Below, piece by piece: positions 1 through 64,000 of a stretch of 64,000 nt of DNA. Source of the stretch: Heterotrichella gracilis (taxonomy: Eukaryota; Sar; Xanthophyceae; Tribonematales; Xanthonemataceae); contig JAULBX010003666.1 in NCBI GenBank assembly GCA_032358255.1, forward strand, positions 62,001 to 126,000, written 5' to 3'. The number at the start of each line of letters is the position of its first letter. Position 1 is the first letter of the stretch. Below the pieces are notes generated by a model that saw nothing but the letters and a program-made list of their open reading frames with translations, was not told the DNA's origin and did no database searches. The translations under genes and the position numbers were made by a program.

Positions 1-248
1 TGGTTTAGGGTTTGCGGACTAGGGTGTAGGGTTTGGAGTTTGGGGTTTGGGGTTTGGGGTTCGGGTGGGTTGTGCCTGCATGTTCCCCCATGACTGCAAA
101 CCCCAAACAGGAATAAGGTGTGGAAAGGGTTTGATCGCCATAGCTACTCTCCTCACCACACACCCTTGGAGCAAAAGGTGAAACCCAGGTATATTGACCT
201 CGTACGTTTGCACGGCAAAATCACAACATTTTCCCAAATGCCACGCAC

Positions 249-3200
249 CTCGGGCGGGGCCAAGTTTATTTCGTCCAGCAGCAGCCACCAGCCCTCCCGC
301 AGGGCCTTAATCAGCGCCCCCTCCAGAAACGCAAATGCAAAACCCCCCTCCGCCGCCGCGGCCGCACGCTCAGCCGCCGCCAGGTCAGCTCGAAAATGCG
401 CCCATTGCTCCTTGAGGCTGTTACCCCCCCCTTGGCGGCGGCGCTTGGCGGGGGGCTCTGAGGAGGCGCCACCTGGCGCCTCCTGGGTGGCTTGGTACTG
501 CAGGGGGAGGAGGACGGAGGTGCAATATGTAAATACAGGAGGGGGTGCATTTATGGGTGCGGATGGTTCAAAGTGGTTGGCCGCTTGCGGCCCCTGTTTG
601 GGACGGAGAGGGGGCTGGAATGCCTGGGGTAAAAGATGAGCAGATTTGGAGGGCACCTTTTGGGTGCACGGGAGGGGTGACAGGATATGTGGATGAGTGC
701 TTGGAGACTAGGAAGATGCAAAATGCTTCTGATGGCAATGCAATGCGGGTGTTGATGCGTGGTGTGATTTGCACAGGCTGTGCGCGGCGTGGCTCAGAGA
801 ATTGTAGTCTAATTTATCTGTAAGGATCCTCATAGTGGGAATTGGAACAAAAATCTTCAGCATTGCCACGCCGCGCATGCTGTGCTGGGTGCCGGTGCAC
901 CGTGAGGAGTGCACTATGGTGAGTGGTGACCAAAATACTGTGGTGGGTGGTGATTGGATAGTTTCATCCATTGATGTGGGTACGTAGCAATGTTGCTGAG
1001 ATGCGTCTTTAATAAAGACTCTTTATGGTACAGCGACAAGCGTGCCTGTGGTGGTTGTGCGGGTGCATGGCAAGATGCTCAAGTTGATGCTGCAATTTGA
1101 CGATGCAAGCCTTCCTACATAGGTTAGGTCTACTACCTAGTCTAGCTAGAGTTTCTGCTAGGGTTTTCCCATCGGCTGCTCAGGGCAAAATTTGAACTCA
1201 ACCCGGAGTAACCCGGTCAGTAGTCTAACATGTATATTGATGCAAGATCATCACTGCAGCCGAGGAGGAAAACCCTGACAAAAGCCTACAAAGTGGAAAC
1301 CGCTACTCCCAACCCTGCAAACTCCAAGACCCTTCCCTTCAACCCTACAAAAAGGAGATCGCTACTGCCAAAACCCCTCCACCTACCCAGTTAACACCTT
1401 CCCTTTGACCCTACATCCTACACCAAACCCTTCCCTAAAAACCCCAACAAAACCCCTACCTTGTCCGCGGCCGCCCTCAGCGCCTTGAGCAGCGTGGCCC
1501 ACTTGCCCCTCTCCGCGTACTTGGCCACCCTCCCCAGGAAGGCGTCGTTATCCCCCTTGGTCCAGGTGCGGCGCACCAGGGGGGAGAAGCGCTCAAGCAG
1601 GGGGAGCAGCGCATCGCGGGGCTCCACGGGGCGGAACCCCCCCAGCAGGTCTGCGCTGTCCGTCTGCTGGCTCAGGTTGAGCACAAGCAGCTTGGCGCCA
1701 ACCTGGGAGATAGGGTTTGAAGGATTTAGGGAAAGGAAAACCATAAATAGGATGTTTAGGGTGTGGGTTGTAGGGTGTGGGCATGCTGGCTCAGGTTGAG
1801 GAACAGCAGCTTGCCGAAATACGGGGGGGTAGGATGTGGGGTTTTTCATGTAGGGTTTTGTCAAGAAGGTGTAGAATGCAGACTGAGCTAGTCTTGTGCC
1901 TGACAAGCTACCCTACACCATACCCCCCTGACCCAAAAGAACTGATTCCACAAACCCATGCTCCAGGTGACCAGCACACCAAAAGGTGGTACAATGTGGA
2001 CCCTGGATAATTGGCACAATGCGTGTGAATGTGGACGTTGAAACCATGGCCAATGCGTACATGTGGACCCTGAAAAGGTGGCCAAATGCGTGGAAATGTG
2101 GACCCTGTTTAGTGGGCACCCGCCTGTGGAATTCAGGCGCTACCCGTGGGAGGGGACTCCGGATGTCAGCCGGGCAGCGCCACGAAGCGCCACCTGGCAA
2201 CTCACTGCCAGGCAAGCCCGGTGTGTGACAGACAGGTGGCGCGACGCAAAGCCGCCAGTTTGGTGTGGGCAGCGCGGGGGGGCGCGGGGGCGGGGGGGCG
2301 CCGCCGCGCACGGGAGCAAGGTGGGTAAACCCACAGTGCGCGCGCTGCCGGAGAAGGTGGCGAGTGCAACAGCGAGTTGTTGATGGCCTTGCACGCAGGA
2401 TGTGCAACGCTATCCTTAAACTGGAAAATGCTCCAAGGTGACCTTCAATTTTGCCACCCCGGTGGAGGTGGCCATTTGCCTTTCCAAACCCTACTGCATA
2501 CCCTACTGCATACCCTACCACAAACCCTACTGCAAACCCTGCCGTAAAACCCCACCGCAGCCCCCACCCACCTGCGCCGCCACCTGCTGCACCATGGTGG
2601 TCTTGCCGGTCCCCGTCTCCCCCACCAGCAGCACCGCCTCGTTCTGCGCAACCCCCACAGCCACCGCCTCCATCACACGCATAGCATGGCCCATGGTGGC
2701 AAACCGACTGGGCTGGGATGCGGCGCGAGCGGCCTGGGATTGGGAAACCATGGGCATGGTTGCGCGACCGATGGCGACCGCGGACTGGGTGGGGGTGAGG
2801 GCGGGCTTGTGCAGGGATTCGAAGGACTCGGCGGTGGTGGTGGGGACGGCCCAGAGCGTGGCCAGGGATTTGAGCAAGGGGAGCTTTGCCTGGGGAGGGG
2901 AGGGAAAATCGAGCGATCAGGGGTGAGGTTGGGGGCAGAATCATCTGGGGCAAAGTGGGATCAAGGAGGATGCAATGCCGTGGAGCCAGCCATCAACCAC
3001 CTCTCTACCGCATGCATAACTGTTTACAATTTAGGGTTTAGGGTGCCCATCGCAAGGCATGAGGGGATCTGGATAGAGGTGCACTTTGGTCCTGTTCATT
3101 TTGCAGGACCAAATGCGACACATCACACATGCCCTTTGTGGCACACAGCGGCGCAAAAACCCTTACCTGGGGTTTTGTCACTGCCGCGGCAAACAGGTCA

Positions 3201-14530: not shown

Positions 14531-16988
14531 ATGCCTCCCATGTGGCGCCTCCCCCTCCTCCTCGCCTGCACCCTCCCCTTCCTCCCCCTGCACCCCGCGC
14601 GTCCCACAGCCATCCAGCGCACCACCCCCTCCTGGCACCTCCCACACCCCAACACACACGCAGCCCTCCTACCACACTCCCACATACCCACCCACCCGTG
14701 GTTGGACACCGCGCGCCGCAGCCTCCTGGTGGGGGGTGGGGGTGGGGGTGGTGCCCAGCCGGGCTATACGTCGGACTCGTTTGCCTACTGGGCGGGGGTG
14801 TTCAACTGGACCACCGAGCAGGTCTGTGGCTGGAGGGTGTGGGGTTTGGGGCGTGGTGGTTGAGGGCTGTGGTGGTCAGGTGTAGGGTTCAGGGTGTTTG
14901 TGGCGTCGGCTGTAAGGGTGTAGGGTGTAGGTAGGAGCCAAGCAACGCTGCCTAACGCTTAGTAGGTACCGCAAGTATGCCAACAGTTTAGCCAGAATGG
15001 CCGTCGACCTTGCACCAGCTGGCCCTGGCACCACTCGACTCCCTTCTGGGTTTACTCCTACGACCATCACTTCTGAGCGTGGTTTGTGCACGCAGGTTGA
15101 TGTGTACCTAGCTCGCTACGGTGCAGCACTTGACGCTTGCAACCTTGCGGCCAGCAACGCCCTTGTGTGCACCAAGCAGTGCAGCTTTGCATGCAAGACA
15201 GCACTCACCCAGGTGAGGCCAAGGCGCTGGGCTAGGGTTTAGGGTTTAGGAGCGTGAAGCATGGGGGGAAGGGGAAGGGCGCAAGCGGGCCTCGGCGCGG
15301 AACCCTGGCCAAGGGTTGCATGTTGGGTCGAGTGGTCATCCTCGAGAGCACGGCCATCGACTGGAGTAACCTTAGGCTGCTAGGGTGATGCGGGGCAAAA
15401 CCGTAATGTAGGGTTGTGTTGTGTGTTTCTCCTTGCATGGGGGCAGGTGGAGCCATGGGTGGTGGCTACCGCCCCACTGATTCTACGCTGATCATGCTGT
15501 GATCACAATCCCTGCACTGGTCAGCGGTCCTGCACATGCACTGACTTAAGTGTGAAGCTGTCCTCTCATTGGGCTGGCAGGTCACTGCACCAGCACCACT
15601 CGATGCACCCCCCTGTGAACCACATGCAACCCCCTGATAACTCCTTCCCTTGGGTTGCAGGTGCCCCTCCCATGCAGGAAGGCGCTCCTAGCTGCGCCCT
15701 CCCCTATCGGCTGCTCATAGTACGTCGCCCTTCACCCAACCAAGCACGTCCTCCCCAGCCGGTGGCTCCTGTTATGCCCCACCTACCCCTTGCCATGCCA
15801 CTTGTTGCAGTTTCATCCCGGTCACACGGAGCACCTGTCATACCCTGCATGGAGGAGCAACCAACTCTCCCTTTGTGCTATCCCCCTTGCATCAATGCTC
15901 AACTATCCCACTGTGTGCCCCCTTCCGTTGATCGTGAATACCCCCCTCCTCCTGTCTTACCCCACCCCCCGGACCCCTGACCCTAACGACCCGCCTTCCC
16001 CTGTGCGCCACCACAGCCTGGAGGTTTTTGAGCACTGCAACATCGATTTGCAAGGCTACAACGCCCCCACGGTGCGGAACCCTTAGCTAGGGTCGTCCAC
16101 CTTGCACCAGTGCCCCTTTTGCCGCGCCTGCAGGATAATCGAATGCATAAGCGCGATCGGATGCCGCATTCGACACCCCTTGATCTGCCGCATCCTGAAC
16201 GGCACTGCTGCATATAGCACCGCCACCTGCCCCTGGAGATCCTGCATCACCGCGTCACGTATGTCGGGCACAGCTACCTCCCAAACCCTAAACCCTTGCA
16301 CACCTCGTGGCAGCAACCGTCCACACCATGCGCAGACCTGGCTGACATACGACAACAACCTCCAAACCCTTCCAGCCCTCCAAAACCCTTGCGCACCCCT
16401 GACAAAGATCTTCCACCCCTGTGCAGACCTGCGGCGCCGCCAACTCCTCCAACGCGCTGGCCCTGCTGTCTGTGGGCCTGCGCCTGGGCATGAGCTACAC
16501 CTATACCCTTGCACACCTCTTGAAAACCCTAAACCCTTCACAGCAACCCTTGGACCCCTGTGCAGACCTGCGGCGCCGCCAACTCCTCCAACGCGCTGGC
16601 CCTGCTGTCTGTGGGCCTGCGCCTGGGCATGAGCAACCTGCAGGTGCAGGACTGGCTCACCGCCGACGACAACGCGCAGCTGGTGGCGGCATGCGAGTCC
16701 TCCCCGGGCGTGGCTAACAGCTCCGCACCCGCGGTACTCAACCCCTGCATCTACAGCATGTATGTGGCGGATATGACGTGCCCCCAGCTATGCTATGATC
16801 AGCTCGATGCGCTGCCCATGTCCTGTAGGCAGCTGCTGGTGGCTGCGCCCAGCTACTACGGGGCTACTTTCCAGACCCAGATGGAGCAGTGTGGGGTGCC
16901 GTACAGTGGGAATGGTGTGGGGGTGGTGGGGGTGTCGCGGGTGGTGGTGGCGCTGCTGGCGGTGGTGGTGGTGGTACTGGCGCTGTGA
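14531..16988 (+). CDS. Secreted Cys-rich protein with GPI-anchor-like C-terminus, unknown function
   Basis: Five exons (14531-14821, 15096-15212, 15661-15719, 16017-16071, 16566-16988) have phases 0, 0, 2, 0 and give 314 residues. The start gives a hydrophobic signal peptide (MPPMWRLPLLLACTLPFLP). The mature part has regularly spaced cysteines (CNLA, CTKQCSFACK, CRKALL, EHCN, TCGAANSSN, CESS, PCIY, TCPQLCYD, SCRQ, QCGV) and several N-glycosylation sequons (NWT, NSS). The last 19 residues, after VSRVV, are almost wholly Ala/Val/Leu and end at the stop, as in GPI-attachment signals. It probably acts at the cell surface or wall; the function is unknown. The middle exons 15661-15719 and 16017-16071 are chosen because their phases fit exactly, and are less certain than the others. 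An identical copy of the first 70 bases of the last exon lies 139 bases upstream. Confidence 0.65.
16420..16496 (+). repeat. Identical echo of the 5' edge of the last exon (16559-16635)
   Basis: About 76 bases, including the TGCAG acceptor and TCGAANSSNALALLSVG codons, are repeated without a visible mismatch 139 bases upstream of the true exon. CCCTTGCACACC and CCCTAAACCCTT motifs are interspersed. This copy has no donor after it, so it would be spliced out or would disrupt the frame. Its identity implies a recent duplication. Confidence 0.85.
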
Positions 16989-20421: not shown

Positions 20422-20504
20422 GGTGGTGTTCCGATTGATTGAAGATGGGCAGAGCTGCAACAAGCGGTAGAACAGCTGCGGAGTATAAAATATGTGGGTT
20501 GTCG

Positions 20505-20512
20505 TTTATATT
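20505..20512 (-). promoter_or_regulatory. Possible TATA box of the SDF2 gene
   Basis: On the minus strand this reads ATATAAAC, about 85 bases upstream of the SDF2 start codon, a plausible core-promoter position. A TGCATGCA palindrome lies at 20572-20580. This rests on motif and position only. Confidence 0.25.
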
Positions 20513-42600: not shown

Positions 42601-45600
42601 CACCCACCTCAAACTTGTTAGTCCCCCCAATGCCCGGCTGGCCCGTGCCCCCCGCCTCGCTGATTGGGCAATCGTAGTCGTATGAGGTGAGGTCGGGCTG
42701 GTACACGCACCGCCCGCTGCTGCAGTCAATGTTGGCACCTGTGGGGGGTCAAGTGTGTGTGTGGCATCAGGGAACAAGCACAGGAATCAAAGGGTTGGTG
42801 TCAGAACCCTCTAAAAGGGCTGCGCCCCCATCATACATCCCCCGAGGAAAGCATGCACCCACCCACCAGCACCCCCTACCACCGCACAAGTGGCAAGCAG
42901 ACAAACGTTTAGCAAGAGCGCTTGCATCTGATGAGGCAGAGCGGGAGCAATTGGTATGCTGGTTGGCATCCATCCCCACACAGCAATCAAAACATTCTAA
43001 ACTAGATTTAGCCATGAAACATGCCACATGATCAGTAGCATTCATGCTTGCATCAAGCACCACAACCCCAACACACCCACACACCTGCCCAGAAGCCAAA
43101 GTTTGTCCCCCCATGCGCCATGTACATGTTGACCGACCCGCTGTCCCCCTGGTATCCCAGTATGGCCAGCATCCACGCGGTCATGACCTCGGTGCTGGTG
43201 TTGGCCATGCGCTCACCCCAGTGGCTCAGCCAACCGGTGCTGCAGGGGGCGAGGGTGTGGGAACTATTAACAAAATATATTGTTTTTCATTTTGATTGGG
43301 TCATTGGCTGATGCTGCATGGGACAGGGGTTGTGTGGTGGTGGTGGTGGTGGTGGTGGTGATGGTGGTGGTGGTGGCACCATGGGGGCTTGGTGGTCACG
43401 TTGGGTGTGGCCAGGCCCAAAGATTAGTCATGCACTGTGTCTTTATTAAGTGTATTTGTTGTATCACAAACCCTATGAGTGGTTTTGCGTGCGCCGAGTG
43501 GTGCCAATGAGCGTACTGCAGCATCCACACCGACAGAAGGGAGGGGAAGCAAATCGTGGGTGCACAAGTACTTGCACAGGAGCTTGCTGGCACTCAAAGC
43601 ACTTTTGGGGTTGGATGCATGCCAAAAGGACTTACTAGTACTCGGAGCACATTTGGAGGCAACTTCCCTAGCTTCGGGTTTGAGGTGTACAGTTTAGGGT
43701 ACATGCCAGGGTGCCTTACTAATATTCGGAGCACATTGGAGGCGACTTCCCAGGCGCGTTCATGGCCCTCTGCCTGCCAAAGGCGTCCGGCAGCTGCCAC
43801 CACCCTGCCCCAAAGTCCACCACCCTGCACAAAAGGGGTTGGGTCCATTTGTGAGGCTGGAAGCGGTGTCGATGCAGCACTTTTTGCTTGCGTACGCACG
43901 AATGGGCAAACTCCCTATGGTGCACATGCAGCTCATGCAGATTGGGTCATGCAAGTTGGCCACCTCTGCTGTAAATCAATAACATCCTGGAGAAGCCTCC
44001 CCTCCCCTCCCCTCCCATTCCCACTACTCTGGCGGCACATCCTCCCCCCTCTCCCCCCCTCTCCCATCCCATCCCCGCTCATTTGATCGCCATAACACCC
44101 GACCATACACCCTTCCAGGCTTTTTTTCATGCCACGCCACCCACCCCTCCACCCCCCCTCACTCACGTGTACACCTCGTCCCCAGGGAGTGACCCATACA
44201 CCACGTTGGAGGGGGGGTCAGTGGTGTAGATGACCACTGACTCGCCCAGGTGGCGCCGCACCTCGCCCACCAGGTGGCGCAGGTAGGCGTGGTTGCCCTC
44301 CTCGGGCCGGTACGCGCCGCAGAACCCATACTCGTTCTCAACCTGGGGGCGAGCGACGTAAATAATGCCAATTTGGTTTTAATGCCGTACGCAATACGGG
44401 CAGGCCCCTCTTTGGTGGCTTGCATGCACAGCATATTGGCTTCGCCATGCATCGGGTGAACAGTGCCTCGAGTCATGGATGCTGTGCAACATGCATTGGA
44501 TTGACGGCTTCATCATGCATTACATGGACAGCGCCTTATGCGTCACGAGTAGTTCGCCTCATCATAGCCTTAGGGTCTAGGGTGTATGCCCCCTGCCCAC
44601 TGACCTGCACCAGCGCCACGGGCCTGCCGTGAAAGGTTTAGATTTTAGGTTTTAAGTTTTAGGGTTCATGGCCCCCGCCCACTGACCTGCACCAGCGCCA
44701 CGGGTCCGCCATTCTCGTACAGCAGCGGTCGCATGCGCGGCAGCAGCACGTCCCACCACCTGTCCACGTGGTGCAGGAAGTCGGAGTCGTTGTATCGAAG
44801 CTGCATGGTGCCGCCGCCGCGCACCTGCGGGGGATGGGGGGAAGCTCGTTACAACGTTGTAATAGGGCCCGATGTAGGGTTTAGGGTTTGTGACCAGCCT
44901 GCTACGAGCAGCCTGGCTGGTAAATCACCATTTTCAGGCGCCACCACCACAGTGACTGTACCAAGGCACACTCTCGTGTGGCAGAAGTAAAGCGTAATTA
45001 CTTGGCAGGCAGCCTACGGCATGGAATAAGACCCCATCAGCCCCCCACACCCCACCCTCCCCAAGCCCCACCCACCTTGGATGAACCCAGCCACCAGGGC
45101 AGGCCCCCAAAGTCCCACTCTGCGCATATGTATGGCCCTGGGCGCAGCATGACCAGGAGTCCCTCCTCGTGGGCTGTCCACAGGAAGCGCTCCAGGTCAG
45201 CGAAACCGTCCCAGTCGTAGTGGCCTGGGTAGGGCTCGTGCAGGTTCCAGGGGACGTAGGTCTGTAAAGGGGGTTATATTTATCTATTTCTCTTTGTCTG
45301 TTTGTGTGGGATTGAGGGGTGTTGGAGGGGGTGCCAGGGTGCGGTGAGGGTAATACAGTGGCGCAGGGAATTGTTTGGGAGCGGGAGTTGGTGACGAGCA
45401 AGGAAGATTCAGTGATATATGTTTCAACCAGACGGCTGTGCATACATCTTGGGCCTGGAAAAGCAACCATGCAGGGCTGCATCACCTGGCATGCGCCATG
45501 ACTGGCTATGCATTACCTGAATTGCATTCAGTCCCATCCCTTTGACCCGCTGCAGCCTGTCCCTCCAGTAGGCTGGATGAATTCTTTGGTAGTGCACGCT

Positions 45601-46946: not shown

Positions 46947-50610
<3,664 letters not shown>

Positions 50611-50639
50611 GCACCACCCCGGGGGAAGGGGGGACGATG

Positions 50640-50940
50640 CCACCAACCAGCAGCGGGGGGATCATGCGCCAGTCTGCAATACCCCACAGGCACCATGTGG
50701 GTGGTGGTGGGTGAGCTAATGGCAGCGACAGCGGCGGGAGGTCTGCGCCAGGCGACATATCCAGGAGCACGATCGGGTGGAGATTTTATCACAAATTGGG
50801 GAGGGTCATGTGCCAGAGAGCCATGGCCACAAACTTCATACATGTGGGCAGGCAGGAATGGGAGGGAAAGGGGGGTGTCCCACCAACAGCAGGAGGTGAT
50901 GCGCCAGTCAGCGATTGTCAGAGGCACCATATGGATGTAG
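50640..50940 (+). repeat. Two echoes of the MAP3K last coding exon in its 3' flank
   Basis: The end of the coding exon (ATGAGGCAGTCGTCCATGGG, then CACAGGCACCATG at 50570-50602) recurs as ATCATGCGCCAGTCTGCAAT, then CACAGGCACCATGTGG at 50662, and as GTGATGCGCCAGTCAGCGAT, then GAGGCACCATATGG at 50896. CACCAACAGCAG flanks are shared. Here the duplication extends beyond the stop codon rather than into an intron. Confidence 0.7.
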
Positions 50941-51634: not shown

Positions 51635-54504
51635 ATGGCTGGCACGGTCTCTGCCATGGCGCTACCTAGTCCAGGTCCACCAGACTACACCTTGGCAGAC
51701 CTACCAGACACAGTGCTCGTGGTGATAGCAGAGAAGCTCATTGCCAACGGCAACTCCAGCCACGTCCTGCGTCTCATGTCGGTGCGTGAGCTGGTCGAGG
51801 CATCGCTTGCATGCATTCCGCTTGGAATCCGAAGCAAACAGGCGTGACGCGGTGCTTGTGGGTGTGTTTATTGCAGTGCTGCAGAGCGCTTTGGATGGCC
51901 ATGGCTGGGGTGGACAGCTACTGGAAGTCTCAGTGCGAGCGCCTGGGCTGGAGGTATGCCCTTTGCATGGATACGGGATGCATGCATGCATGTTGCATAA
52001 CGGCCTTTCACCCTTCTTTACCTACAGTCAGGCAGTTGCAAGGTTTCACAGAACGTCGGGGCTTTGTTTGACATAGTACGTCGCTTGAAAAACCAGTCAG
52101 AAGCATTCTATAGTGTGTGTGCACGTTGTTTGGTACCACTGCATCTACACGATGCAACTGCAGTGACCCAGTGCTCTCCCCTTTGCATACGCTTGCACTC
52201 GTTGCCTTGCACACGTGCACTGACGAGCTTGACTGCCTTGCACACGTGCTTTGACCCGGTGGCCCCACCCCCCTTGCCTGCAGCAAGGCCAGTGCTCCAG
52301 CACCCCCCAGCCCCACCGGTGCGGCCCACCCCCCTGCACCCCACCTCCCGCCAGAGGGCTGGCACCTGTACTACTGCAGGCGCATGCAGGCACGGTGGAA
52401 GACCAGGTACCGACCTTTACCACCTCCACACCCCCACCTCCTCCATGCACCACCACACAGCCCACCCCACCCCAGCCAACACCCCCACCCCCTTTGTGGC
52501 CCCCTCGTCCACACTGCTACTGCATCCAGCCGACTACGTGTACGCTGCAGCCCATGTCACCTGCGTACTTTTCAGAATTGCACACAACCATGGCTTTGCT
52601 CCATTCCATAGTCAGCCTGTGTCAAGACTCCAACCACCAGTCAGGACCCCCGACCCCCCATCCCTTGGTCCCATAGGGCCGCCGTGCGCCGCCTATCCAC
52701 CTTCCTACCCCCCGCCAGCGAGCGCAGCCTTCGGCCGGGGGCAGCACCTGGTGAGCTGCAGGCGCTGGAGAGGGGGATGGGGGCCAGGCTGCCGTGGCAG
52801 GTGGGGTGTGGGGTGTGGGTGGGTTAGGGCCCTTGTTGGCGTGCCAGATGAATAGTGTAAGGTCGGAGGCCCTCTGATCGGATTGGGGTAGAAAGGAGGA
52901 TGCTCACGTCCACCAGCGCCAAGCCATGCAAGCCTGCATAATTACAGTGGCAGGAAACGAGCCGATAAAAACCTGTATCCCAAACTCACCAAACAACGAG
53001 AACAGGTCCAGTTCATAGCCACCACTCATTGCGCTGTGGCGAGGAACGCGGCGGTGCATTGACTCTGCCCCTCTTATTGTGTTGCGCAGCTATGGGAGCT
53101 GTACCGCTTTGTGGATGGGCAGGCGGAGGGGCCGGGGGTGCACTTTGCAGAGCTGGGGAGGCTGCTCAGTATGCACACTAAACCCTAAATGAACCCTGAT
53201 TGCTTTGCAAAGCCGGACAGGCTGCTGAGTGTGCGCTGAACCTATATGGACCATCCTGTGGTGCATTGATTGCCAAGCGCTTTCCATCCCCCGCCACCCA
53301 TATACACACTGGCATCATGCGTCCTCCAATTCCTCGAATTTGCCACTTACAAAATGTAACGAGAAGTGGCCCTGCTTCCCTCATTGCAATAGCAAAGCCT
53401 GGAATCGGTTACGTCACTCCAATGCCTGGCCATGTGATCAGGTGTTGCTGAGGTGGCGGCTGAGGTGGCGCGTCGCCACCCACCAGGGGAGGTCAAGGGG
53501 GCGTACAAGCAACTGAAAGAGACGGGTTTGACTGAGGACAGCCTGTACAAGCTACCCCGCGCCACGTTGCTGCCGCATGCGCACTGCCACATGGGTGCGG
53601 AGCACCAACCGAATGAGCCAACAGGCAGGGGTACAATTAAATCCCCCGCTGGCGAGCCTTTTAGTCTTGGCAGACCTGATATTGCACCATGACCCATGGC
53701 CTGCAATAGGAACAAGGACACAGGGACGGGGTACTTGCAAATGGGCCCCATTCTGAATGACTCGATTCCTGGGTAACAACACCATTCATTGTGAGGCACC
53801 CCACATACAATGCAACATTTCAGACCTAACTCCCTCCTCCTAGCAGGATCCTTCCCAGCAAGCCCCCCACCACCCCACCCTGCCCCCGCCGCCCCCCGCG
53901 CCATGCGCTGCAGCCAGCACAGCCCCCGCTGCATTGTGAACAGCGTGGACCACTTCAGCGGGAGGGACGCACCCGCAGTGCTGCTGCCAGTGTGCGGGGT
54001 GGTGCGGGGGGGCCGCCAGCTGTGCTGCGACCTGCAGGGACATGTCTACATGACCGCGGGTGGGTGAATGGGGTGCGGGGTTGAGGGCGGTGGGTGTAAA
54101 AGAGGTTGCAAGCGAGTGGGTGGGTGGAGGGGAGGAGGGGAGGTTCAAAATTTGCTTGTTGGCAATGTGAGCTGTAATATCGTCCATGTGTGCACCATGC
54201 ATGTGTGCACCATGCATGTGTGCACGCCATGCACACACAAACGCCATGCACACATAAATGCAAGCACGCCATGTGCCTGCTTGCACGTGGCACACCAGCC
54301 ATGTATGCATGTGTCGCCCACATGGCGGTGGCAAGGCATTTGAGCATGCCACGTCCCCAGCCCATGCACGATGCGCAGCAGTGCACGTGCACCCTGCCCC
54401 TTGCCCCACCCGACTGAATCTCTCCTCCCCCTGTACACCCAGGCTTCAGCACCGTGTACGCAGCAGACAGCCTGACCGCCTACCTCTACCTCATGCTGCG
54501 ATGA
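51635..54504 (+). CDS. F-box protein, SKIP16/FBXO3-like, without ApaG domain
   Basis: F-box proteins are substrate receptors of SCF ubiquitin ligases. SKIP16/FBXO3 normally combine an F-box, an SMI1/KNR4-like (SUKH) region and a C-terminal ApaG domain. Seven exons (51635-51781, 51877-51953, 52284-52406, 52677-52800, 53090-53168, 53847-54059, 54443-54504) match in phase and give 274 residues. The F-box runs over about residues 18-75 (YTLADLPDTVLVVIAEKLI, CCRALWMAMAGVDSYWKSQC, ERLGW). A basic link follows (GWHLYYCRRMQARWKTR). The SUKH-like core is PGELQALERGMGARLPWQLW and ELYRFVDGQ, the last nearly identical to SKIP16 LLYRFVDGQ. After it come DAPAVLLPVCGVVRGGRQLC and CDLQGHVYMTAG. The frame stops at 54502 and no ApaG-like exon follows before the convergent gene. 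Start: the upstream of two in-frame ATGs. Confidence 0.82.
53190..53238 (+). repeat. Echo of the 3' edge of F-box gene exon 53090-53168
   Basis: GCTTTGCAAAGCCGGACAGG then CTGCTGAGTGTGC repeats CACTTTGCAGAGCTGGGGAG then GCTGCTCAGTATGC at the exon end, some 60 bases downstream. CACTAAACCCTAAATG lies between the copies. The copy retains a donor-like GT. Confidence 0.75.
54183..54300. repeat. CATGCAYGTGTGCAC tandem repeats in an F-box gene intron
   Basis: Units CCATGCATGTGTGCAC and CGCCATGCACACACAAA alternate head-to-tail and partly as inverted copies, giving hairpin potential. Related CATGTGCC units continue to about 54350. Confidence 0.7.
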
Positions 54505-55180: not shown

Positions 55181-58100
55181 TCACAGCTCTTCTGTGGCGG
55201 TCCCGCTTGTTGCCTGCTTGAGCTGTGTTGGCAGCAGGAAAATGTGCACCTGCTCCTCCTTGGCCATGCAGCGGTAGGGCTGGTTGGTCTTGGACTTGTC
55301 GCTGGTGAACATGAACCTGGGACACAAGGGGGGTTGCCGTCAGAGCTGAACACGATCATGTGTGATCAGCAGGAGGTGATATTATGATCGATCAGCGCCT
55401 GTACTCGCCCATCCACTGCACGCACTCGAAGTTGCAAGTACACGCCTGCTGGCAATCGATGTCCCGAGCGAAGAAGTAATGCCTCTCGACAATGCAGATG
55501 CCTATCAATGATCATGACATGCCCAGCCTCATTCCTGGCATTCCCATCTCATGCAATCCTACCACCTAGCTACTACACTCAATCCTGATCCCATCCCAGG
55601 GCAGACTGTACCGCACCTGTAGTCGTCGATCCACTGCACGCCCTCGATGTTGCAGTACACCTGCTGGCAGTCGCTGTCCCTGGGGAAGAAGTAGTGCCTG
55701 CCCAGCCCCACAAAGTCCATTTCCTCAAAGTCAAACTCCCCCGCCCACACACTTCCCTCCTCCTGTGAGGTGATCATGATGTTGTTCCCATGGAAGTCGA
55801 TTTCTGAGTAGTCCTGGTAGAAGGCGGTGCGGGGGATGTGGATCACCTTGACGGTCTCCCAGCTGCAAGAGGGACGGGGGAGTAGAATTCCATGTCAATT
55901 TCCTAACCCATTTATTACTCAATTTGTGTCTACTTCCGAGCAGTCCAGGTAGAAGGCGGTGGCGGGGATATGGAACGTTGAGTTTTTCAAGTTTCAAAAT
56001 TTCCAGCTACAAGTGATCGACTGTAATGCTGGCGTTAGAGGTACAATGGCCAACCTGTGTCGCTGCAGCAGACCATCATCATTGCTTGTAAGGGATCTAC
56101 CACCACTGTCACCCACACAGAAAACCTCTCCTAGGTAGTCCACCCACCGCACTGCTGTTTCTGTCTACCTGTTAATTGCTCACCACCACAACACACAACT
56201 TGAAAACCCTACACTAGGGTACCTCACCCACCTGCACTGCCCGTTGCTGTTCCGCACTTGCTCACCACCACCCCACACCCTACATTAGGGTTTCCCACCC
56301 ACCTGCACTGCCCGTTGCTGTACTGGTACTTGCTGACCACCACCCTCCCGTTGCCGCGAATCCTGCCCTGCTTGCCACCCTCACAGAAGTTGCCCTCGCA
56401 CAGGCCAAGCAGGAACTTGCCTACGACAGGCCAAAAGGGTTTGATTAGGGTTTGCTCAGGGTTTCCTTTTACACAGCCCCAGCAGGAACTTGCTACAGCA
56501 CCAAACAGGCAAAAAGTAAGGTCTAAATAGTGTCTGCATAGGGTTTATCAGGGTTTTGCTTGCACAGCCAGCCCAGGATGAGCTTGCATGCCACAGGGCA
56601 GGAGACAGGCTTTGTTTTAGGTCCTGCTGTTGCAAGCATGGCATTCACCGATTTTGACCAACCAGGGTGGACCAGGGATAATGTCCTGCACCCCCCCAAA
56701 CCCTTTGTGTGTGAATTAGGCCCCTCACACCTTTCTCCCCTCGCATCCTCGTTCAGGGATTAGGTTGAAAGTCTAGGGAGTAAGGTTTACCCCTCGCACA
56801 CCTTTCCTCCCATAACAAGTACCGGTACACCCCCTGCCACCCCTTGTCCACGGTCTAGGGTCTAGGGTTTAGGGTTTGTGCCCCGCGCACCATTCTCCCC
56901 TCCGTCATGGAAGTGCACCCCCTCCCACCCCTTGTTCCCATGGGTCAGCGTGAAGTTGACGTCGCACTCCTCAACCACGCTGTAGTTGCTGAAGTCGGCA
57001 TTGAACTCAACCTCCAGCGCCAGGGGTTTGTAAGTCTCCTCCTCTGCGGGGAGGGGGGCACTATTTTTTGGAATATGTTACGGGGTTCTGTAATGTAGCC
57101 AGAATTTGGTACAAGCAGCAGCTGGGTGTTTGGTCTAGGTCCCATCTGTTGGGAGGCGCTGTAATGTGTGCCAGCCTTACCCAGTGACATGTCCTGGCAA
57201 GACATAAACAATCCATTCTTCTTTTTTGCGATCCGGCACGCTCCTGTCACATCTGCACCTACCTACCGGTACTCACCACTTGAAGATTACAACAGGTGCA
57301 TTGGTTTGCAAAAGTCCGGAATTTTCCAGAATTACTTGCACCGCACCTTAAGAGGCCAACGTTTTGCCGAGGATAATGAACGTGTCCCTGGTTTATTTTA
57401 CAATAATGGAAATGATTGGAATTTTGCTGCCGCACATCGCCTCCCCTGGCCACAATTGAAGTGGTTTCAAAATGTTGCTTACCCTATTGTTGTTTTAAAA
57501 CATAACTCTTGTCAAAAAACCTTGTAAGTAATTAGATGATCATGTTTACAAATCTTAAAATAACTTTAATAATCAAACATTTTTTGTTGTATTTATAATT
57601 AAAGCATTTGCTGCCGCACCTTCAGCGGGCATGGCCTCCCTGACCACGATGAATGTGTCCCAAAATGTTGCTATATTTGCTGTCATTTGATGCAATTTTA
57701 CATTGGTAAGTGATACAAGTGGGGTATTGAATGCGTCGCACCTTCAGCGGGCATTGCCTCCCTGACCACAATAAATGTGTCCTTGTCTGTGCGGTGCGTG
57801 ATGCCCTCAAACTGCGACTCAACCCGCTGGTCCCCAGCCAGGGTGTTGTTGGGGGAGCGGAACTCAAAGCGGTCGCCAATCACGCCAATGGCGTCCATGC
57901 TGCAGAGGGTGTGGGGGTTAGGGTGTAGGGTATAGGGTGTAGGGTGTAGGGTTTGGGATTGGGGAAGCGGAACTCAAAGCGGTCGCCAATCACGCCGATG
58001 GCGTCCATGCTGCAGAGGGTGTAAGGTGTAGGGTTAGCGTGTGGTCCTGGTGGTGGGGTGCCAACCAGGGTGTAGGGTTGAGGCGTGCATGAATTGAGAG

Positions 58101-59272
58101 CCAACAAGGGCGTGGTGCGGGTGCTGCGAGCGGGGTTCAACAAGCCTTCCCAGTTTTTTTGGGGCAGGTTGGTATGGCGGGACCAGGAGAGTAAGTGAAG
58201 TGAAGCACTGGCCACCAAGGGTTGGGACGAAAGATAATACGTGCGAAATACGTCCAGAAGATACGTGCGTGTCTAGTGGCACTGTTGCTTACAGGTGAGC
58301 TCAGTGGTAGTTGGAGTCCCAGCACTCATTGGGACGGGAGATGGCACACACACAGCGGTGATACCATGTATCACACATTGTAAAGTGCGTGCAACTATCA
58401 ACCCATGTGTAAGAAACACCCTGGCTGCTACCCCTCTCACTCACTTGTCAAACACGATGAAGTACTTCCCGTTTCTCTTGGACACCCCGCTTGCCTCAAA
58501 CTTGGGCACCTCTATAGACGGGAACAGGCCGGCCACCGCAATCTCCTTGATGAGCCGCATGGTGTTCTTGCGGTAGTACAGCGTGTCGCATACAGTGCGC
58601 CCCATGCTACACACATGGGTACACAAACACAACTTAGCAGCTTTTCCGCGGTGTACTTTGCACGGTGCAAGCTTGGTTTTGGAGGGGGTGCAAGCAGAAT
58701 GGACTTGGGTGGCAAAGTCGTGCAGTAGGGTTTGGCAGTAGAAAGGGAGCAGGGTTTTGACTAGTGACCGCATGGTGTTCTTGCAGTAGTACAGAGTGTC
58801 GCATCCCGTGCGTCCGATGCTGACACACAGGCGCAGTGACACATTGGTTGCAGCTGGTTCAAAGTGGTGCAGGAGACACAAAAAGTGGGTGGGAAAGGAT
58901 GCTGCACATATGGGTCCAAAACGCGTCTTTGCATCCTTTCCACGTTGCTTTTTGCTTCATGCAGGGCTAGCTGTGAAGGAGGTAAGGGTCTAGGGAGCAA
59001 GTGGGTGGCAAGAAGTCAAGCAGTAGGGTTTGGCTAGGGGGGATCGAGGTTCGGTACCTGTCGCTCGTGAAACCCTCGTCTTCGGGGATCATCACCCCGT
59101 CCACCTCAAAATACCCTGCTAGGGTCTCTTCTGGCTTGGATACGCCTCGGAGGAACTTGCTCCAGAGGTTAGTAGGCTGGCTGGTGAAGGTGGGGAATGC
59201 ATCAGCGGAGCGTGCAACCGCGAGTACTGCTAGCAACAGCATCGGGGCAAGGTACCCCACAGGCGCGGTCAT
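55181..59272 (-). CDS. Secreted protein of unknown function, possibly beta-propeller
   Basis: Seven exons (59058-59272, 58445-58606, 57742-57899, 56891-57043, 56303-56420, 55617-55862, 55181-55316) have phases 2, 2, 1, 1, 2, 2 and give 395 residues. The start gives a signal peptide (GYLAPMLLLAVLAVARSADA). The chain then has repeated strand-like units: YFEVDGVMIPEDEGFTSD, KYFIVFDKNMDAIGVIGDRF, SQFEGITHRTDKDTFIVVRE, WEGVHFHDGG, KFLLGLCEGNFCEGGKQG, TAFYQDYSEIDFHGNNIMIT, NIEGVQWIDDYRFMFTSDK. Alternating 'what was predicted, what is shown' strands and paired Cys suggest a secreted propeller, perhaps related to SdiA-regulated or phytase-like esterase proteins. That link is weak and from memory. The predicted location is extracellular or ER lumen; the reaction is unknown. 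This gene has more echo copies than any other in the window. Confidence 0.78.
55385..55500 (-). repeat. Echo of the 3' half of exon 55617-55862
   Basis: Read on the minus strand it translates as HYFFARDIDCQQACTCNFEC then VQWMGEYR, a diverged copy of HYFFPRDSDCQQVYCNIEGV then QWIDDYR about 200 bases upstream. It keeps a nearly open frame, so it could be mistaken for an exon. It is not needed, because the true exon joins the last exon (FMFTSDK) directly. Confidence 0.8.
55920..55985 (-). repeat. Echo of an internal part of exon 55617-55862
   Basis: AGTCCAGGTAGAAGGCGGTG then GCGGGGATATGGA repeats AGTCCTGGTAGAAGGCGGTG then CGGGGGATGTGGA at 55810, the part encoding IHIPRTAFYQDY, in the intron upstream of that exon. 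Confidence 0.75.
56135..56275 (-). repeat. Two echoes of the 3' edge of exon 56303-56420
   Basis: CACCTGCACTGCCCGTTGCT then GTTCCGCACTTGCTCACCAC at about 56228 repeats the exon end at 56301, which encodes YQYSNGQC. A weaker copy (CCCACCGCACTGCTGTTTCT then GTCTACCTG) is at 56145. CCTACACTAGGG and CCTACATTAGGG lie between the units. Confidence 0.75.
56462..56600 (-). repeat. Two echoes of the 5' edge of exon 56303-56420
   Basis: CACAGCCCCAGCAGGAACTT then GCTACAGCACCA and CACAGCCAGCCCAGGATGAG then CTTGCATGCCACAGGG resemble the true acceptor region CACAGGCCAAGCAGGAACTT then GCCTACGACAGG. AGGGTTTGATTAGGGTTTGC and GGTTTATCAGGGTTTTG occur between copies. Confidence 0.7.
57335..57680 (-). repeat. 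Two or three decayed echoes of the 3' edge of exon 57742-57899
   Basis: The best copy is at 57610-57660 (GCACCTTCAGCGGGCATGGC then CTCCCTGACCACGATGAATG), matching 57738-57780. Poorer copies are at about 57345-57395 and 57430-57480. CAAAATGTTGCT is shared by the last two. Copies become more diverged with distance from the exon. Confidence 0.7.
57905..57965. repeat. Telomere-like TTTAGGG/GTGTAGGG tract between echo copies
   Basis: GGGTTAGGGTGTAGGGTATA, then GGGTGTAGGGTGTAGGG, is a run of degenerate telomere-type heptamers exactly between the true exon edge and its echo. Confidence 0.85.
57966..58022 (-). repeat. Near-identical echo of the 5' edge of exon 57742-57899
   Basis: GCGGAACTCAAAGCGGTCGC through ATGCTGCAGAGGGTGT repeats 57858-57911 with about one mismatch in 54 bases. 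It includes the acceptor and the codons for MDAIGVIGDRFEFR. It gives a second, equally good acceptor. Confidence 0.92.
58765..58830 (-). repeat. Echo of the 5' half of exon 58445-58606
   Basis: CCGCATGGTGTTCTTGCAGT then AGTACAGAGTGTCGCA repeats CCGCATGGTGTTCTTGCGGT then AGTACAGCGTGTCGCA at about 58556. The copy would translate as GRTGCDTLYYCKNTMR against GRTVCDTLYYRKNTMR. Confidence 0.88.
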
Positions 59273-59865: not shown

Positions 59866-62800
59866 ATGTTAGCCCAGGTACGTAGGCAGGTAGATACGCA
59901 TGCATTACATCCTTGACCCCAAACCACACGCTGGGGGACTGAACGTATCCTCCCTAGGCAACCTGCAAACCTCTCCTAGCCTGAATTGGTGGCAGTTCAT
60001 TTGCTTGGGCTCCGCCTCCGCATGTTCATGCACGCATTCAACACCCCCAGACAATGCCAATCTAAAAACCCTGGCCAGGTCACACATCAACCCACTAGCC
60101 GTGCTGGCTGGGCGTGACTTGCATGGGCCAGCCCACATCTAGCCTATAGGACGGCACGTGGTTGGCGTTATGGTTCCCTGCTGGACCCTCTATGTGCACA
60201 GCTCCACCTCCAACACACACTCTGCCTGTTGATGCGCTTGTGTTATGCACTTGTGGTGCGCAAAGTAGAAGTCAGAGTAGTCTCCCTGTCCAGATTGCGT
60301 AGGCATCCCACGTTAGGCATCCCACGTGCTGGGCACTCAGCGGGCACCCCTAGCCACCGCCACCACCCGCACAATTTCCTCGTGCACTAGGATGAAATTG
60401 TAGCCCAAATAAGGCGCAATTGAGGCACCCGCCCACCACCACCCGCCCATCCCGCACCCCCAACCACCCCACCGCAGGCGCCGTGGCCAAGCAGGAGGAG
60501 ATTATTAGCCAGACCCTGAACCTTAAACCCTAAACCCTTCACCACCCATCCAACTGCAGGCCAGTGCCGACGCTGGGTTCAAAGAGAAGGAGGTCACGCA
60601 CCAAACCCTGAGCACTACACCCTACCCCCCACCCCCCCGCACCCCACCCGCAGGCCAGTGCCGATGCCACGGCCAAGCAGGAGGAGACCACGCACCAGAC
60701 CCTAAAAGCTGTCACCCTGTCACCCTAAAACCCTCCACGCTCCAACCCCCGCAGGCCAGTGGCGATGCAATAGCCAAGCAGGAGGAGATCATGCGCCAGA
60801 CGGAGCTCAAGCGGCGGCTGGCGGGGACGGTGGTGCCGACGGACGTGGGCGAAGTGCGCGCCATGCTGCGGCGACTGGAGGAGCCTGTCACCCTGTTTGG
60901 GGAGCGGGAGGTGCGCGAGGCACTCCACTGCCGTTTGAAGTTGCATGGCTTTCATTACAGATGAATGGGCGATTGGTCATGGGAGAGCGCATGTGTCATG
61001 GGGTGGCGCCTCCATTTTTGGCTGACGCCATGTGATGCCGCATGCACCAGCATCTACATGCGTTGGCGCACACACATGCATGGGTTTGTGTGCCTCGCAA
61101 CCGCACCTGCCTGTGCGCGCTGGATGCGTGTAGGGTTTAGGGTTATTCTAGTAGGGCGACCCACATCCGCATACCATTGGGTCACCTGGATGTGTGGGCA
61201 TGATGCGAGGTGGTGGCGCATGTGATTCGCACATGGTGTCGCTGACCGTGACTGTGGCGGGAGCATGCAATGATATGCTGCTTTGTGATGGTCATTTGAC
61301 ACCGCTGATTGTGGCTGTGTGCATTGCCAGATGGAGCGCCGCGAGCGGCTGCGCAAGCTTGTGGCAGACATGACCGAGGAGCAGCGGGAGGAGCTGCTGG
61401 AGGGTGAGTGGGTGGTGGTGGTGGTGGTGGTGGCGGTGGTGATGGCGGCGGTGGTGGTGGTAATGTGGTGGCAAACATGCATGATGACTAGGAGGCGCTG
61501 CTGTGGTGTCTGTGATGGGTGTGGATGCGTAGGGGTGGGGTAATTGGGGATTGGGGATTGGGGATTGGGGACCTGGCTAATGGCAGCGATGACACATCGA
61601 TAGAGCACCCTGTGGTGACAAGCAGACACGGCACAGTAGTTCCTATCGTACTGTAGCTGGCACTGGAGTTGGTTGGAGCCGATTGGATGGCTCCAGCCAT
61701 TTCGTGATTGCTGCCCGTGTCCCCGGGCAGCATACCATGGCTCAGTGTGGATGGTTTAGGGCTTTTGCAACACTGGTTTAGAGCTTTGCAGCACTGAGGC
61801 ATGCATGTGAGTGTGTGCCAGCGCCTTCATATGGCAGCCATGCTGAAGCGGTTGGTGTGCCTCGTTCAGGTTCGGAGGAGGACGAGGGTGCCCCCGCTGG
61901 TGCTCTCCCTGACGACATATTCTACACCGAGGGGCCGGAGGAGCTCAAGCAGGCGCGCATGGAGGTAGGCACAGGCAAACCCTAAAGTCTAAGCCCTAAA
62001 CCCTAACCCCTAAATCCTAAGTCCTGTTCTTCACCGAGGGGCCGGAGGATCTCAAGCAGGCAGGCATGGAGGTAGGCGCAGGCACCCCTCAACGCTACGC
62101 GCTAAAGAAGCACGCATAAAACCCGAAGCCTTAAAGGAGCTCAAGCAGGCACGCATGGAGATAGGCATCTCGTGCATGGGGCCACAAACCGGCTGTTTCC
62201 CTGAGGCTTGCAGTGTGTTTTAAAACCCTGGCTGAAACCCTTTTATAATCCCCACCATTTGGAATGTGCGATTTTAAAGCGCGCTGCCGCCTGCTTGGCG
62301 GCTTAGGGCGCGCGCAGAAAGGTTACTGCTCTTAACCCCAGCAAAAACAATGTCCAAACCCCACCACCGGTGTTCCAAATGGTGCAGCAAATTTCCCTAC
62401 AAACCCATATTGAGGCGCAACTCCTTGGCTGAAATCCATAGCGTCGCTATATCTACCTATTTGATTTTTTGGCTGAAAACCCTCTAAATCCGCGCAGATT
62501 GCGCGATTCTCCCTGCAGCGCGCCGCCGCCCGCCTGGCCTCGCAGCGCGCGCGCCAGAAGGATCCCCTGCGCGATCCGCAGGGGGAGCGAAACGAACTGG
62601 AGGACCAGCTGCGCGCGGTGGCCAACATTTCCTCGGAATTTGGCGAGGAAAGGCCCTTTTCGGGGTGCGCGTTCTCGCCCGATGGGACAACGCTGGCCAC
62701 CTGCGCGTGGAGCGGGATGGTGCGTGTGTGGAGCGTGCCTGGGTGCGAGCGGGTGGTGTCCATCCAGGCGCATGAGAACCGGGTGACTGGGGTGTGTTGG

Positions 62801-64000
62801 CACCCCGGGGGGCGGGCGGGGGGAGAAGGCGTGGCGCTGGCGACAGGTGGGTGGTGGGGGGAGGGGGAGGGGGTGGGGGTTAGTGCCCCATGCGGAGGGT
62901 ATGTGGTATGGTGGCACGGTACTTGCTGGTGGTTGTGGTGATTTTTCTGGTGCGGCACCTGTAGCACACTTGGGTAGTGAGGTATATTTCCTAACACACA
63001 TACGCATTGTCAGCCTTTTCCATCTGCCGCAATTCTTACCCTTTCTTTACAAGCTACTCCAATAGCCTCCCCCGGCTGTGGTCCTTCTTCTGTTCCTCAC
63101 TGTGTTGAAAGAGTTTCTTTTTAAAATCAATATACCCGTTGCTTGCAGGCTGCGCCGATGGCCTGGCCCGGCTTTGGTCCGGCGAGGGCAAGCTGCTGCA
63201 CACGCTGAAGGGCCACACAGACCGGCTGGGGCGGGTGGCCATGCACCCCATGGGGCGACACCTGGCGACCGCCTCGTTCGACGCCACCTGGCGGCTGTGG
63301 GACATCGACTCCGGTGCCTGCTTATTGGAGCAGGAGGGGCACAGCAGGGGGCTGTATGCGGTGGCGTTCCACCCAGATGGCTCCCTGGCGGGGTCAGCGG
63401 GGCTGGATGCGATTGGTGCGTGTGGTGTGTGTGTGTGTTTGTGTGTGGTGGGGGGGAGGGGGTGTAGTGTGGCGTTGAGTGGGAGGGGATGTCACCGGGA
63501 GGGTGGTGGTGCTGGCGCCTGTATCCCTCACGTTGCATGTGTATGCGGTGGCGTTCTACCCGGACGGCGGGACCTGCAGGGCTGGATGCGATTGGTGCGT
63601 GTTGTGGGTTGGTGATGGGTGTGGGGATGGTAGTGGGGCGTCGAGAGGGGGTGGGATGCGATTGGTGCTAGCGGGGGGCGGGTGCCTAGGGTTCAGGGCG
63701 TGTGTTTGGGGTATATTGTGGCCATTTGCCTTCCACACAACTGGGTCCCTGGCGGGATCGGCGGGATGTGATTGATGCAGGCCATGTGTAGAGTGACCAT
63801 AGCACCTCCCCTCCTCCACCGCACCCCGCATCATCCCACACCAATTGCCCCCCCGCCCCTTCACAGGCAGGGTTTGGGACGTGCGCACCGGCAAATCCAT
63901 CATGGTCCTTGAGGGCCATGTGAAGGAGATCCTGGCCATGGACTTCTCCCCCAACGGCTACCTGGTTGCCACCGGCAGCAACGACCACACGTGCAAGGTG
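59866..64000 (+). CDS. PRPF4: PRP4/PRPF4, WD40 protein of U4/U6 snRNP, 3'-partial
   Basis: PRPF4 binds PRPF3 and the U4/U6 duplex in the spliceosomal tri-snRNP. Exons read: 60755-60910, 61331-61403, 61870-61964, 62498-62846, 63149-63415 and 63867 to the window edge, with matching phases (0, 1, 0, 1, 1). The PRP4 motif module is [20 protein letters not shown], then [15 protein letters not shown] and [34 protein letters not shown] follows, then the WD40 blades: [89 protein letters not shown]. These match human PRPF4 blade by blade. A proposed first exon (59866-59877, encoding MLAQ) fits in phase and has a GTACGT donor, but is uncertain; without it the visible coding part starts at 60755. The last WD40 blades lie beyond the right edge. 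Confidence 0.93.
60475..60705 (+). repeat. Three echoes of the 5' edge of PRP4 exon 60755-60910
   Basis: Copies at about 60475-60515, 60555-60612 and 60650-60702 repeat GCAGGCCAGTGGCGATGCAA then TAGCCAAGCAGGAGGAGATC. The nearest copy keeps nearly every base; the middle copy is most altered. CCTAAACCCTAAACCC and ACACCCTACCCCC lie between them. All three keep an AG acceptor. Confidence 0.88.
62022..62168 (+). repeat. Two echoes of the 3' edge of PRP4 exon 61870-61964
   Basis: TTCACCGAGGGGCCGGAGGA then TCTCAAGCAGGCAGGCATGG, with its GGAGGTAGGCGCAGGCA donor, lies at about 62029-62084. A shorter copy, GGAGCTCAAGCAGGCACGCA then TGGAGATAGGC, is at 62136. CCCTAAACCCTAACCCCTAA separates exon and first copy. 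Confidence 0.88.
63525..63780 (+). repeat. Two echoes of the 3' edge of PRP4 exon 63149-63415
   Basis: TATGCGGTGGCGTTCTACCC through GGCTGGATGCGATTGGTGCG at about 63540-63600, and TTGCCTTCCACACAACTGGG then TCCCTGGCGGGATCGGCGGG at about 63727-63770, repeat the exon end encoding [18 protein letters not shown] fragment GGGATGCGATTGGTGC is at 63653. Confidence 0.82.

Follow-up and report, generated by a model that had tools for sequence, protein, structure and literature searches.

Why do introns in one stretch of DNA carry partial copies of the adjoining exon ends, splice site included, and why do telomere-like heptamers lie between copy and source? We asked this of positions 62,001 to 126,000 of contig JAULBX010003666.1 (assembly GCA_032358255.1, Heterotrichella gracilis), 64,000 nucleotides in all and hereafter the window, in which an earlier note had described such copies, here called echoes. 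The echoes are direct local duplications with a bias toward exon edges, they are linked to telomere-like tracts, and they decay with distance from their source. The best reading, to which we give a probability of roughly 0.45, is that staggered breaks across splice borders were end-joined with telomere-type end processing. The targeting of exon edges and its coupling to a telomere-like tract look new; each half is known in other organisms. The earlier note knew of no description of this pattern, and we likewise found no title or abstract on exon-edge duplications with telomere-like joints in a search that covered subscription papers thinly.

Duplicated exon edges in the window

A pair scan that uses no gene model, in which ungapped local direct repeats 30-700 b apart were chained and scored with a cut-off of at least 32, found 45 pairs in the window and 0 in each of four dinucleotide shuffles. 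These pairs, which merge into 33 arrays, have the form of tandem duplications: the copies are direct and adjacent, and the unit measures tens to hundreds of bases. A first blastn self-search, which had also given 45 pairs against 0 in three shuffles, was superseded because the program can miss matches close to the main diagonal. Inverted local matches numbered 11, not all independent; two overlap exons and one lies within 20 nt of an edge, and among them we found no edge bias and none that straddles an edge as the direct pairs do.

Exon edges were taken from a home-made, self-trained exon/intron model, which replaced an earlier model with hundreds of micro-exons and gave 15 gene models (numbered with a g below) and 85 confident exons totaling 15,370 b (length at least 50 and log-odds at least 9). 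One exon call, 63486-63629, is false, since homology to PRPF4 identified it as itself an echo, and one weak exon, 30935-31006, was added by hand. The false exon is retained in the per-edge z test, the pair scan, the tract densities, the orientation by intron thirds, the necklace count, the length-matched gap scoring and the lone-tract test; it is left out of the decay simulation, the intron-flank and heterogeneity tests, motif masking, echo ranking, spacing, the comparison of inner and outer tracts, and gap anatomy. The weak exon is included in the length-matched gap scoring, the inner/outer comparison, gap anatomy, echo ranking and spacing. Additionally, the inner/outer comparison leaves out both edges of exon 63149-63415 and uses spacings set by hand from the alignment for the PRPF4 array at 60755.

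When each exon edge was tested against 100 shuffles of the adjoining 500 b, 25 of the 170 edges had a copy at z > 6 and beyond all shuffles. With the false exon removed, 26 of 168 edges are echoed, and the weak exon brings the number to 27, made up of 15 donor and 12 acceptor edges. The existence of exon-edge echoes, as the earlier note had claimed, is therefore borne out by both the pair scan and the edge test. Its tally of echoes in at least 11 of 14 intron-containing genes is not: we find them in 9 of 13 multi-exon models, a denominator that is soft because g5 and g10 each look like two fused genes. At the level of introns, 22 of 71 carry an echo with the false exon still included. The distribution from gene to gene is uneven, with g12, g13+14, g5 and g6 holding 20 of the 26 echoed edges (heterogeneity p = 6e-4); eight of the 14 edges of g12 are echoed, compared with none of the 30 in g2, g3 and g9 together.

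Of the 45 pairs, 31 include an exon edge, 14 are confined to noncoding DNA and 0 lie in an exon interior (false exon included), compared with 8.2 ± 2.5 edge pairs, and a maximum of 17 in 2000 runs, under random placement that spares exons. Decay was then modeled with 2,400 simulated tandem duplications of uniform age that received point changes and small indels, exon sites changing at a quarter of the neutral rate. Among events still visible after decay 29.6% are expected at an edge, and 26 of the 33 observed arrays touch a confident exon edge (p = 7e-9), a result that hinges on the decay model used and on the home-made exon calls. The low-complexity filter was rejected as the source of the edge count, as the scan without it gave 47 pairs in 34 arrays, of which 27 touch an exon. 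With the telomere motif masked, 26 of 31 arrays remain at exon edges.

Spacing between source and nearest echo ranges over 48-239 b (median 105, 27 edges), and outer copies extend as far as 364 b. Decay with distance, which the earlier note also claimed, is seen at edges with several echoes, where the nearest is the best in 6 of 7. Identity to the source is 78-97% in all but two echoes. The exon part of the nearest echo is better kept (73% agreement) than the intron part (44%; p = 2e-4), as is expected of a constrained copy paired with a free one. The splice dinucleotide is unbroken in 16 of the 27 nearest echoes, which is no more than 73% identity predicts without selection.

Telomere-like tracts and the repeated unit

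Counted over both strands, seven-mers of the telomere necklace, the circular permutations of the letters AAACCCT, occur 380 times, and those of the runner-up among the 20 necklaces of these letters occur 91 times. The window contains 136 exact tracts, half of which are a single heptamer, and the 8-mer AAACCCTA occurs 55 times on both strands. As in interstitial telomeres, these are internal tracts of telomere units beyond chance. Tract density falls from 10.75 per kb in echo gaps (circular-shift test, p = 4e-4) and 8.52 in echo spans to 3.26 in the rest of the same introns, 1.88 in introns without echoes and 0.65 in exons. Heptamers equally common in echo-free introns, which the earlier note had named as evidence against its pattern, are thus not what the window holds, and each of the five heptamer stretches that it had picked out does contain telomere-like heptamers beside an echo. 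Elsewhere, a minisatellite at 2485-2540 consists of about 4.7 copies of a 12-b unit, CAAACCCTACTG, that includes a telomere-like heptamer, and the start of the window (2-65) is a degenerate 7-b array of GGTTTGG with 9 copies and 77% match, which looks like a decayed telomere-type stretch.

We considered whether similarity among the motifs themselves drove the detection of echoes. This explanation was rejected, as the link between tract and echo survives masking: with the motif masked before detection the link for edge arrays still holds (p = 8e-4), and an echo is present at 14 of the 35 edges that have a tract within 60 nt, compared with 12 of the 133 edges that have none (odds ratio 6.7, p = 4e-5). 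The coupling of duplicated exon edges to telomere-like tracts that the earlier note proposed is accordingly upheld. In length-matched sampling, 13 of 28 gaps reach a tract score of at least 12 of 16, with 2.0 expected, and beyond the echo 4 of 28 do so. An exact telomere 6-mer occurs in 16 of 27 echo gaps.

The anatomy of units and joints was read by eye in alignments. A unit runs from an intron tract across the splice site to a point within the exon, and the joint sets exon interior against tract. In 13 of the 16 tract-bearing gaps the tract is closer to the joint than to the splice site, at a mean distance of 10.2 nt where 16.4 nt is expected (p = 0.024). Of 25 edges, 15 have a tract scoring at least 12 of 16 in the inner unit and 9 have one in the outermost unit. 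The outermost unit also has one at 7 of the 15 edges with such a tract in the inner gap, often in aligned position, and the tract is therefore usually copied with the unit. It is nevertheless stronger in the inner gap than in the outermost unit (Wilcoxon p = 0.015; p = 0.002 by 7-mer bases). We conclude that the tract is in most cases part of the unit, and that the joint is where it is reinforced or newly gained.

Read in the sense of transcription, TTTAGGG tracts number 18, 17 and 2 in successive intron thirds and CCCTAAA tracts 14, 11 and 30, such that the last third holds 30 of 55 CCCTAAA tracts and 2 of 37 TTTAGGG tracts (p = 4e-7). Since TTTAG/G resembles a 3′ splice site, we read this as selection against a false acceptor near the true one. 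A strand rule for telomerase, with TTTAGGG beside the left copy and CCCTAAA beside the right, gave no clear pattern in the by-eye reading of the alignments.

Genes and arrays along the window

GT-AG introns and a TTTAGGG-type telomere motif indicate that the window is nuclear DNA of a eukaryote, and in the trained model its acceptors are of the TGCAG/G type. In our judgement the window has a green-algal look; the TTTAGGG-type motif is ancestral in green algae according to the available part of one source (PMC8226300). Eight of 10 submitted proteins matched Pfam, as midasin-like AAA, cytochrome-b5 domains, PAF-acetylhydrolase with a MIR domain, Ham1/ITPase, parts of a GH35 beta-galactosidase with Snf7, protein kinase, and PRPF4 with WD40 repeats; the g12 and g4 proteins had no Pfam match. 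With the echo exons left out of the query, ITPase aligned with the human protein over 166 residues and PRPF4 over 352, in both cases spanning echo-bearing borders, and the echoes there are therefore not coding. An Rfam scan of the window gave 0 matches at the gathering threshold, and ARAGORN, run with the bacterial code, gave 0 tRNA. A Snf7/CHMP protein compared with the viral_contigs and genome_contigs collections, and an ITPase DNA pattern and a PRPF4 exon compared with viral_contigs, found no relative; as both collections exclude eukaryote genomes by design, this carries no information on rarity. The Snf7/CHMP-like gene at 39191-39746 is one long exon, unlike its intron-rich neighbors. Among local inverted matches the strongest, with a score of 68, lies in noncoding DNA at 36406-36459.

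On the plus strand, the array of g4 (16415-16637) joins the acceptor edge of exon 16566-16777 to an echo at 16427-16495 with a CCCTAAA tract in the gap; 69 of 69 exon bases are identical, which marks this as the youngest event. In ITPase, the donor edge of exon 26896-27010 is followed by echoes at 27063-27116 and 27161-27217 with TTTAGGG tracts at the joints (26957-27235). The first of these also forms, at 27060-27116, an in-frame open stretch of 57 nt between the TTTAG/G of a tract and an unbroken GT, and its splicing as a cassette exon is conceivable. Exon 27540-27672 is echoed at both edges, with an acceptor echo at 27478-27496 (27438-27558) and a donor echo at 27731-27768 with CCTAAACCCTAAACA both at the joint and in the outer unit (27635-27829). 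Past the ITPase stop codon, 28700-28815 looks like a decayed copy of the end of the last exon together with AAACCCT-like motifs, and the 3′ end of the gene may be echoed too. The weak exon 30935-31006 of g8 has two donor-edge echoes, all three units including a telomere-like tract (30963-31262), and the acceptor edge of exon 31799-32097 in the same gene has one echo without a tract (31681-31837). An imperfect inverted repeat in the g8 intron, at 31374-31511, could fold as a long hairpin and is possibly a small element.

Further along this strand, the protein kinase gene g11 carries a donor-edge array at exon 53090-53168, with an echo at 53203-53226 and CTAAACCCTAAA in the gap (53143-53234). 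The pair 50664-50703 / 50899-50937, counted as noncoding, probably also includes a small exon of the kinase gene that the model overlooked. PRPF4 is echoed at several exons. The acceptor edge of exon 60755-60910 has three more copies of acceptor and exon start upstream (60461-60801), and a CCCTAAA-like tract stands ahead of the inner three of the four copies. The donor edge of exon 61878-61964 has echoes at 62027-62071 and 62135-62160 with a CCCTAAA tract in the inner gap (61920-62173), and the acceptor edge of exon 62498-62846 has a faint echo at 62278-62319 (62278-62554). Exon 63149-63415 shows a faint echo of its acceptor edge (63037-63180) and donor-edge echoes at 63540-63594 and 63728-63765 with no tract in the gap (63353-63765), the first of which is the one that the model miscalled as exon 63486-63629.

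On the minus strand, g0, which encodes the midasin-like AAA ATPase, has an echo at 1784-1816 of the acceptor edge of exon 1460-1702, with gap tracts that are of TTTAGGG type on the plus strand (1665-1816). The arrays of g5 are without exact tracts: an acceptor-edge array of exon 18717-18890 with an echo at 18939-18988 and no telomere tract in the gap (18835-18988), and donor-edge arrays at exon 22632-22896 (22525-22649; no tract), exon 23247-23421 (23117-23272; an echo of 45 b at 91% and no exact tract) and exon 24148-24347 (24088-24162; an echo 48 b away and no tract). The GH35 beta-galactosidase gene g10 has donor-edge echoes at exon 43735-43824, with a gap tract (43618-43737), and at exon 44687-44824, with a tract at the matching place in both units (44570-44710).

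The remaining exon-edge arrays belong to g12, also on the minus strand. Exon 55617-55862 is echoed at its donor edge (55399-55465) and its acceptor edge (55928-55981) without tracts (55395-55974). Exon 56303-56420 has a donor-edge unit of 71 b with ACCCTACATTAGGG bordering each unit and an acceptor-edge echo at 56472-56493 with gap tracts (56206-56493). The donor-edge array of exon 56891-57043 has TCTAGGGTTTAGGGTTT in the gap and a decayed tract in the outer unit (56771-56935). Exon 57742-57899 has a donor-edge echo at 57620-57660 and a fainter one at 57435-57456, without a tract (57615-57782), and an acceptor-edge echo at 57959-58009 (96%) whose gap is filled by a 48-b AGGGTGT/TTTAGGG-like array, a shorter one lying beyond (57849-58034). 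Finally, the acceptor edge of exon 58445-58606 is echoed at 58768-58819 with a tract at the joint (58555-58821).

Origin of the echoes

In the mechanism we favor, a staggered break across a splice border would leave complementary overhangs that are filled in on both sides and joined, and the overhang would thereby be duplicated. The product would be a short direct tandem duplication whose unit straddles the splice site and takes in tens of exon bases and the adjoining intron. Rice and Arabidopsis reportedly carry tandem duplications from end-joining of staggered breaks, which Vaughn and Bennetzen in 2014 and Schiml in 2016 are said to have described, and those of the window resemble them in being short and direct with units of tens to hundreds of bases. 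The break ends would further be handled like chromosome ends before being joined. Telomere insertion at breaks and fill-in by CST-Pol alpha are both known processes, and the simplest account would therefore be one joint event. Only events that spare one whole exon edge would survive, and the second copy would consequently sit in the intron and decay. An existing tract would be a good seed for the next round, which we propose is why outer units have the tract again although that of the inner gap is the strongest. The duplications, their direct orientation, the edge bias, the link to the tract and the decay pattern are observed, whereas the breaks, the fill-in, the part of telomerase and CST and the repeated rounds are what we infer.

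Several known systems share features with this mechanism. In the available parts of two reports, mammalian interstitial telomeric sequences are telomere units inserted at double-strand breaks, sometimes with a direct flank duplication ascribed to staggered breaks (PMC2246262, PMC7215372), as in the horse (PMC7215372). The likeness to the window lies in telomere units inside chromosomes; a directly duplicated flank, found at some mammalian loci, accompanies the tract here at echo gaps but is on average absent from the 78 lone tracts. However, duplication is a minor outcome in mammals, occurring alone at 6 of 130 rodent, 4 of 25 primate and 3 of 66 horse loci, and where the loci lie has no relation to exons, human loci being given there as absent from coding exons and at chance level in introns (PMC2246262, PMC7215372), whereas here the duplications sit on exon borders and 16 of 27 gaps hold the exact 6-mer. 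The tracts here are also short and degenerate. In mouse and human cells, Pol alpha-primase guided by CST, which is also the machine for telomere fill-in, fills in 3′ overhangs that are joined in a Ku-dependent manner to give short tandem duplications (PMC8355091); the available parts of that paper describe neither a telomere-like joint nor an exon-border preference, both of which are present here. The telo boxes of Arabidopsis and rice are likewise isolated AAACCCT units spread through genomes with a TTTAGGG-type telomere, for which non-processive telomerase at free 3′ ends has been proposed, but their frequency is highest in 5′ regions and lower in Arabidopsis introns, and in the parts available they are not linked to local duplication (PMC3022908).

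Some of our results weigh against the favored mechanism. A simple filler does not predict a tract scoring at least 12 in the outermost unit, which is found at 9 of 25 edges, and the description of the tract in the earlier note as filler between duplicated flanks holds to the extent that the tract is strongest in the gap and fails in these outer units. No exact telomere 6-mer is present in 11 of 27 echo gaps, noncoding arrays without a tract exist, and five noncoding arrays showed no tract excess when the motif was masked. The sense CCCTAAA orientation of 10 of the 13 gaps scoring at least 12 is not predicted by the model (p = 0.09, not significant). Additionally, the flanks of the 78 tracts outside arrays resemble each other no more than chance predicts (p = 0.24); either a tract can occur without a duplication or the duplication there has decayed. 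The idea that every lone tract has duplicated flanks was rejected.

Nearly as good as the favored mechanism is an account in which the tract comes first. A telomere-like tract would be a weak point at which replication or repair stalls and recopies about 100 adjoining bases, each unit would border on a tract, and the telomere machinery would not be needed. We regard this as a tentative possibility that stops short of being likely. It is consistent with the tract at an aligned place in outer units of the arrays at 27540 (donor), 30935, 44687, 56303 (donor) and 57742 (acceptor), with the 9 of 25 outermost units that score at least 12, compared with 7% of random 60-nt intron segments (windows of unequal length), and with the rearrangements that internal telomeric sequence promotes in yeast, as given in the available part of PMC11626172. 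However, a tract that came first should be retained equally in all units, which the stronger inner gap contradicts (p = 0.015, 0.002), several outermost copies (60755, 61878, 26896) have no tract, 11 of 27 gaps lack an exact one, and 21 edges are without an echo despite a tract within 60 nt. It seems improbable to us that ordinary tandem duplication occurs everywhere and that edge pairs are merely visible for longer because the exon copy is conserved, the motifs being background. Exon parts are indeed better kept than intron parts, edge pairs do stay visible longer in the simulation, and telomere 7-mers are common in noncoding DNA here, at about 2 tracts per kb outside echoes. The simulated effect nevertheless lifts the edge share only from 24% to 30%, compared with the 26 of 33 observed, and the tract link survives masking. 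For this window, and given this decay model, visibility alone is refuted, and a genome-wide repeat with annotated exons could restore it.

We give little credence to a function for echoes or tracts as splicing elements under selection, whether as decoy or spare splice sites or as enhancers akin to telo boxes. The crowding of sense CCCTAAA into the last intron third, which sense TTTAGGG avoids (30/55 vs 2/37), and the 16 of 27 unbroken splice dinucleotides would suit such a role, but the latter is about what 73% identity yields without selection, avoidance of the TTTAG/G false acceptor can explain the former, and echoes decay with distance. An artefact of assembly or gene models would surprise us: the models are home-made and one exon proved false, yet the copies have diverged from one another (78-97% identity outside two echoes), Pfam and human homologues back the main genes, and pair detection is independent of the models. 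Introner elements would also place repeats in introns; here no family is common to introns and the copies are local, with no intron-intron match within the window at E at most 1e-4 (motif masked, low complexity filtered). That the echoes are footprints of new introns, born of such elements or of tandem duplication, is the least credible account. The duplications do cross exon-intron borders, as does the duplicated segment in the available part of the potato RdRp case (PMC4974935), but donor and acceptor flanks match beyond the 99% null in 0 of 69 introns, and ITPase and PRPF4 lose nothing at echoed borders. Copied flanks at both ends are absent from every intron, which leaves signs of lengthening and none of creation, and both new introns made by duplication and an introner family were rejected. 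Thus, unlike in potato, existing introns just lengthen here, and where the earlier note had allowed that echoes lengthen introns or create them, lengthening stands by construction and creation finds no support.

As to why borders should be preferred, we can only guess at chromatin prone to breaks or at nicks that transcription leaves at splice borders. A wider form of the favored mechanism, which we think rather unlikely, is that exon borders are break hot spots whose ends are routinely treated as would-be telomeres by telomerase and CST-Pol alpha, with abortive telomere formation as a standing source of intron growth. If this were true, each round would duplicate an exon edge with its splice site, leave a telomere-like scar and lengthen the intron, which would bear on the way introns gain length and on the reason for long introns in some unicellular genomes. 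The exon copy is an unchanging reference, and echo decay therefore gives relative age. If borders are repeatedly duplicated with telomere-like joints, echoes beside constrained exons would date past break repairs within a single genome, and the link between telomere end processing and intron length would become testable in laboratory algae.

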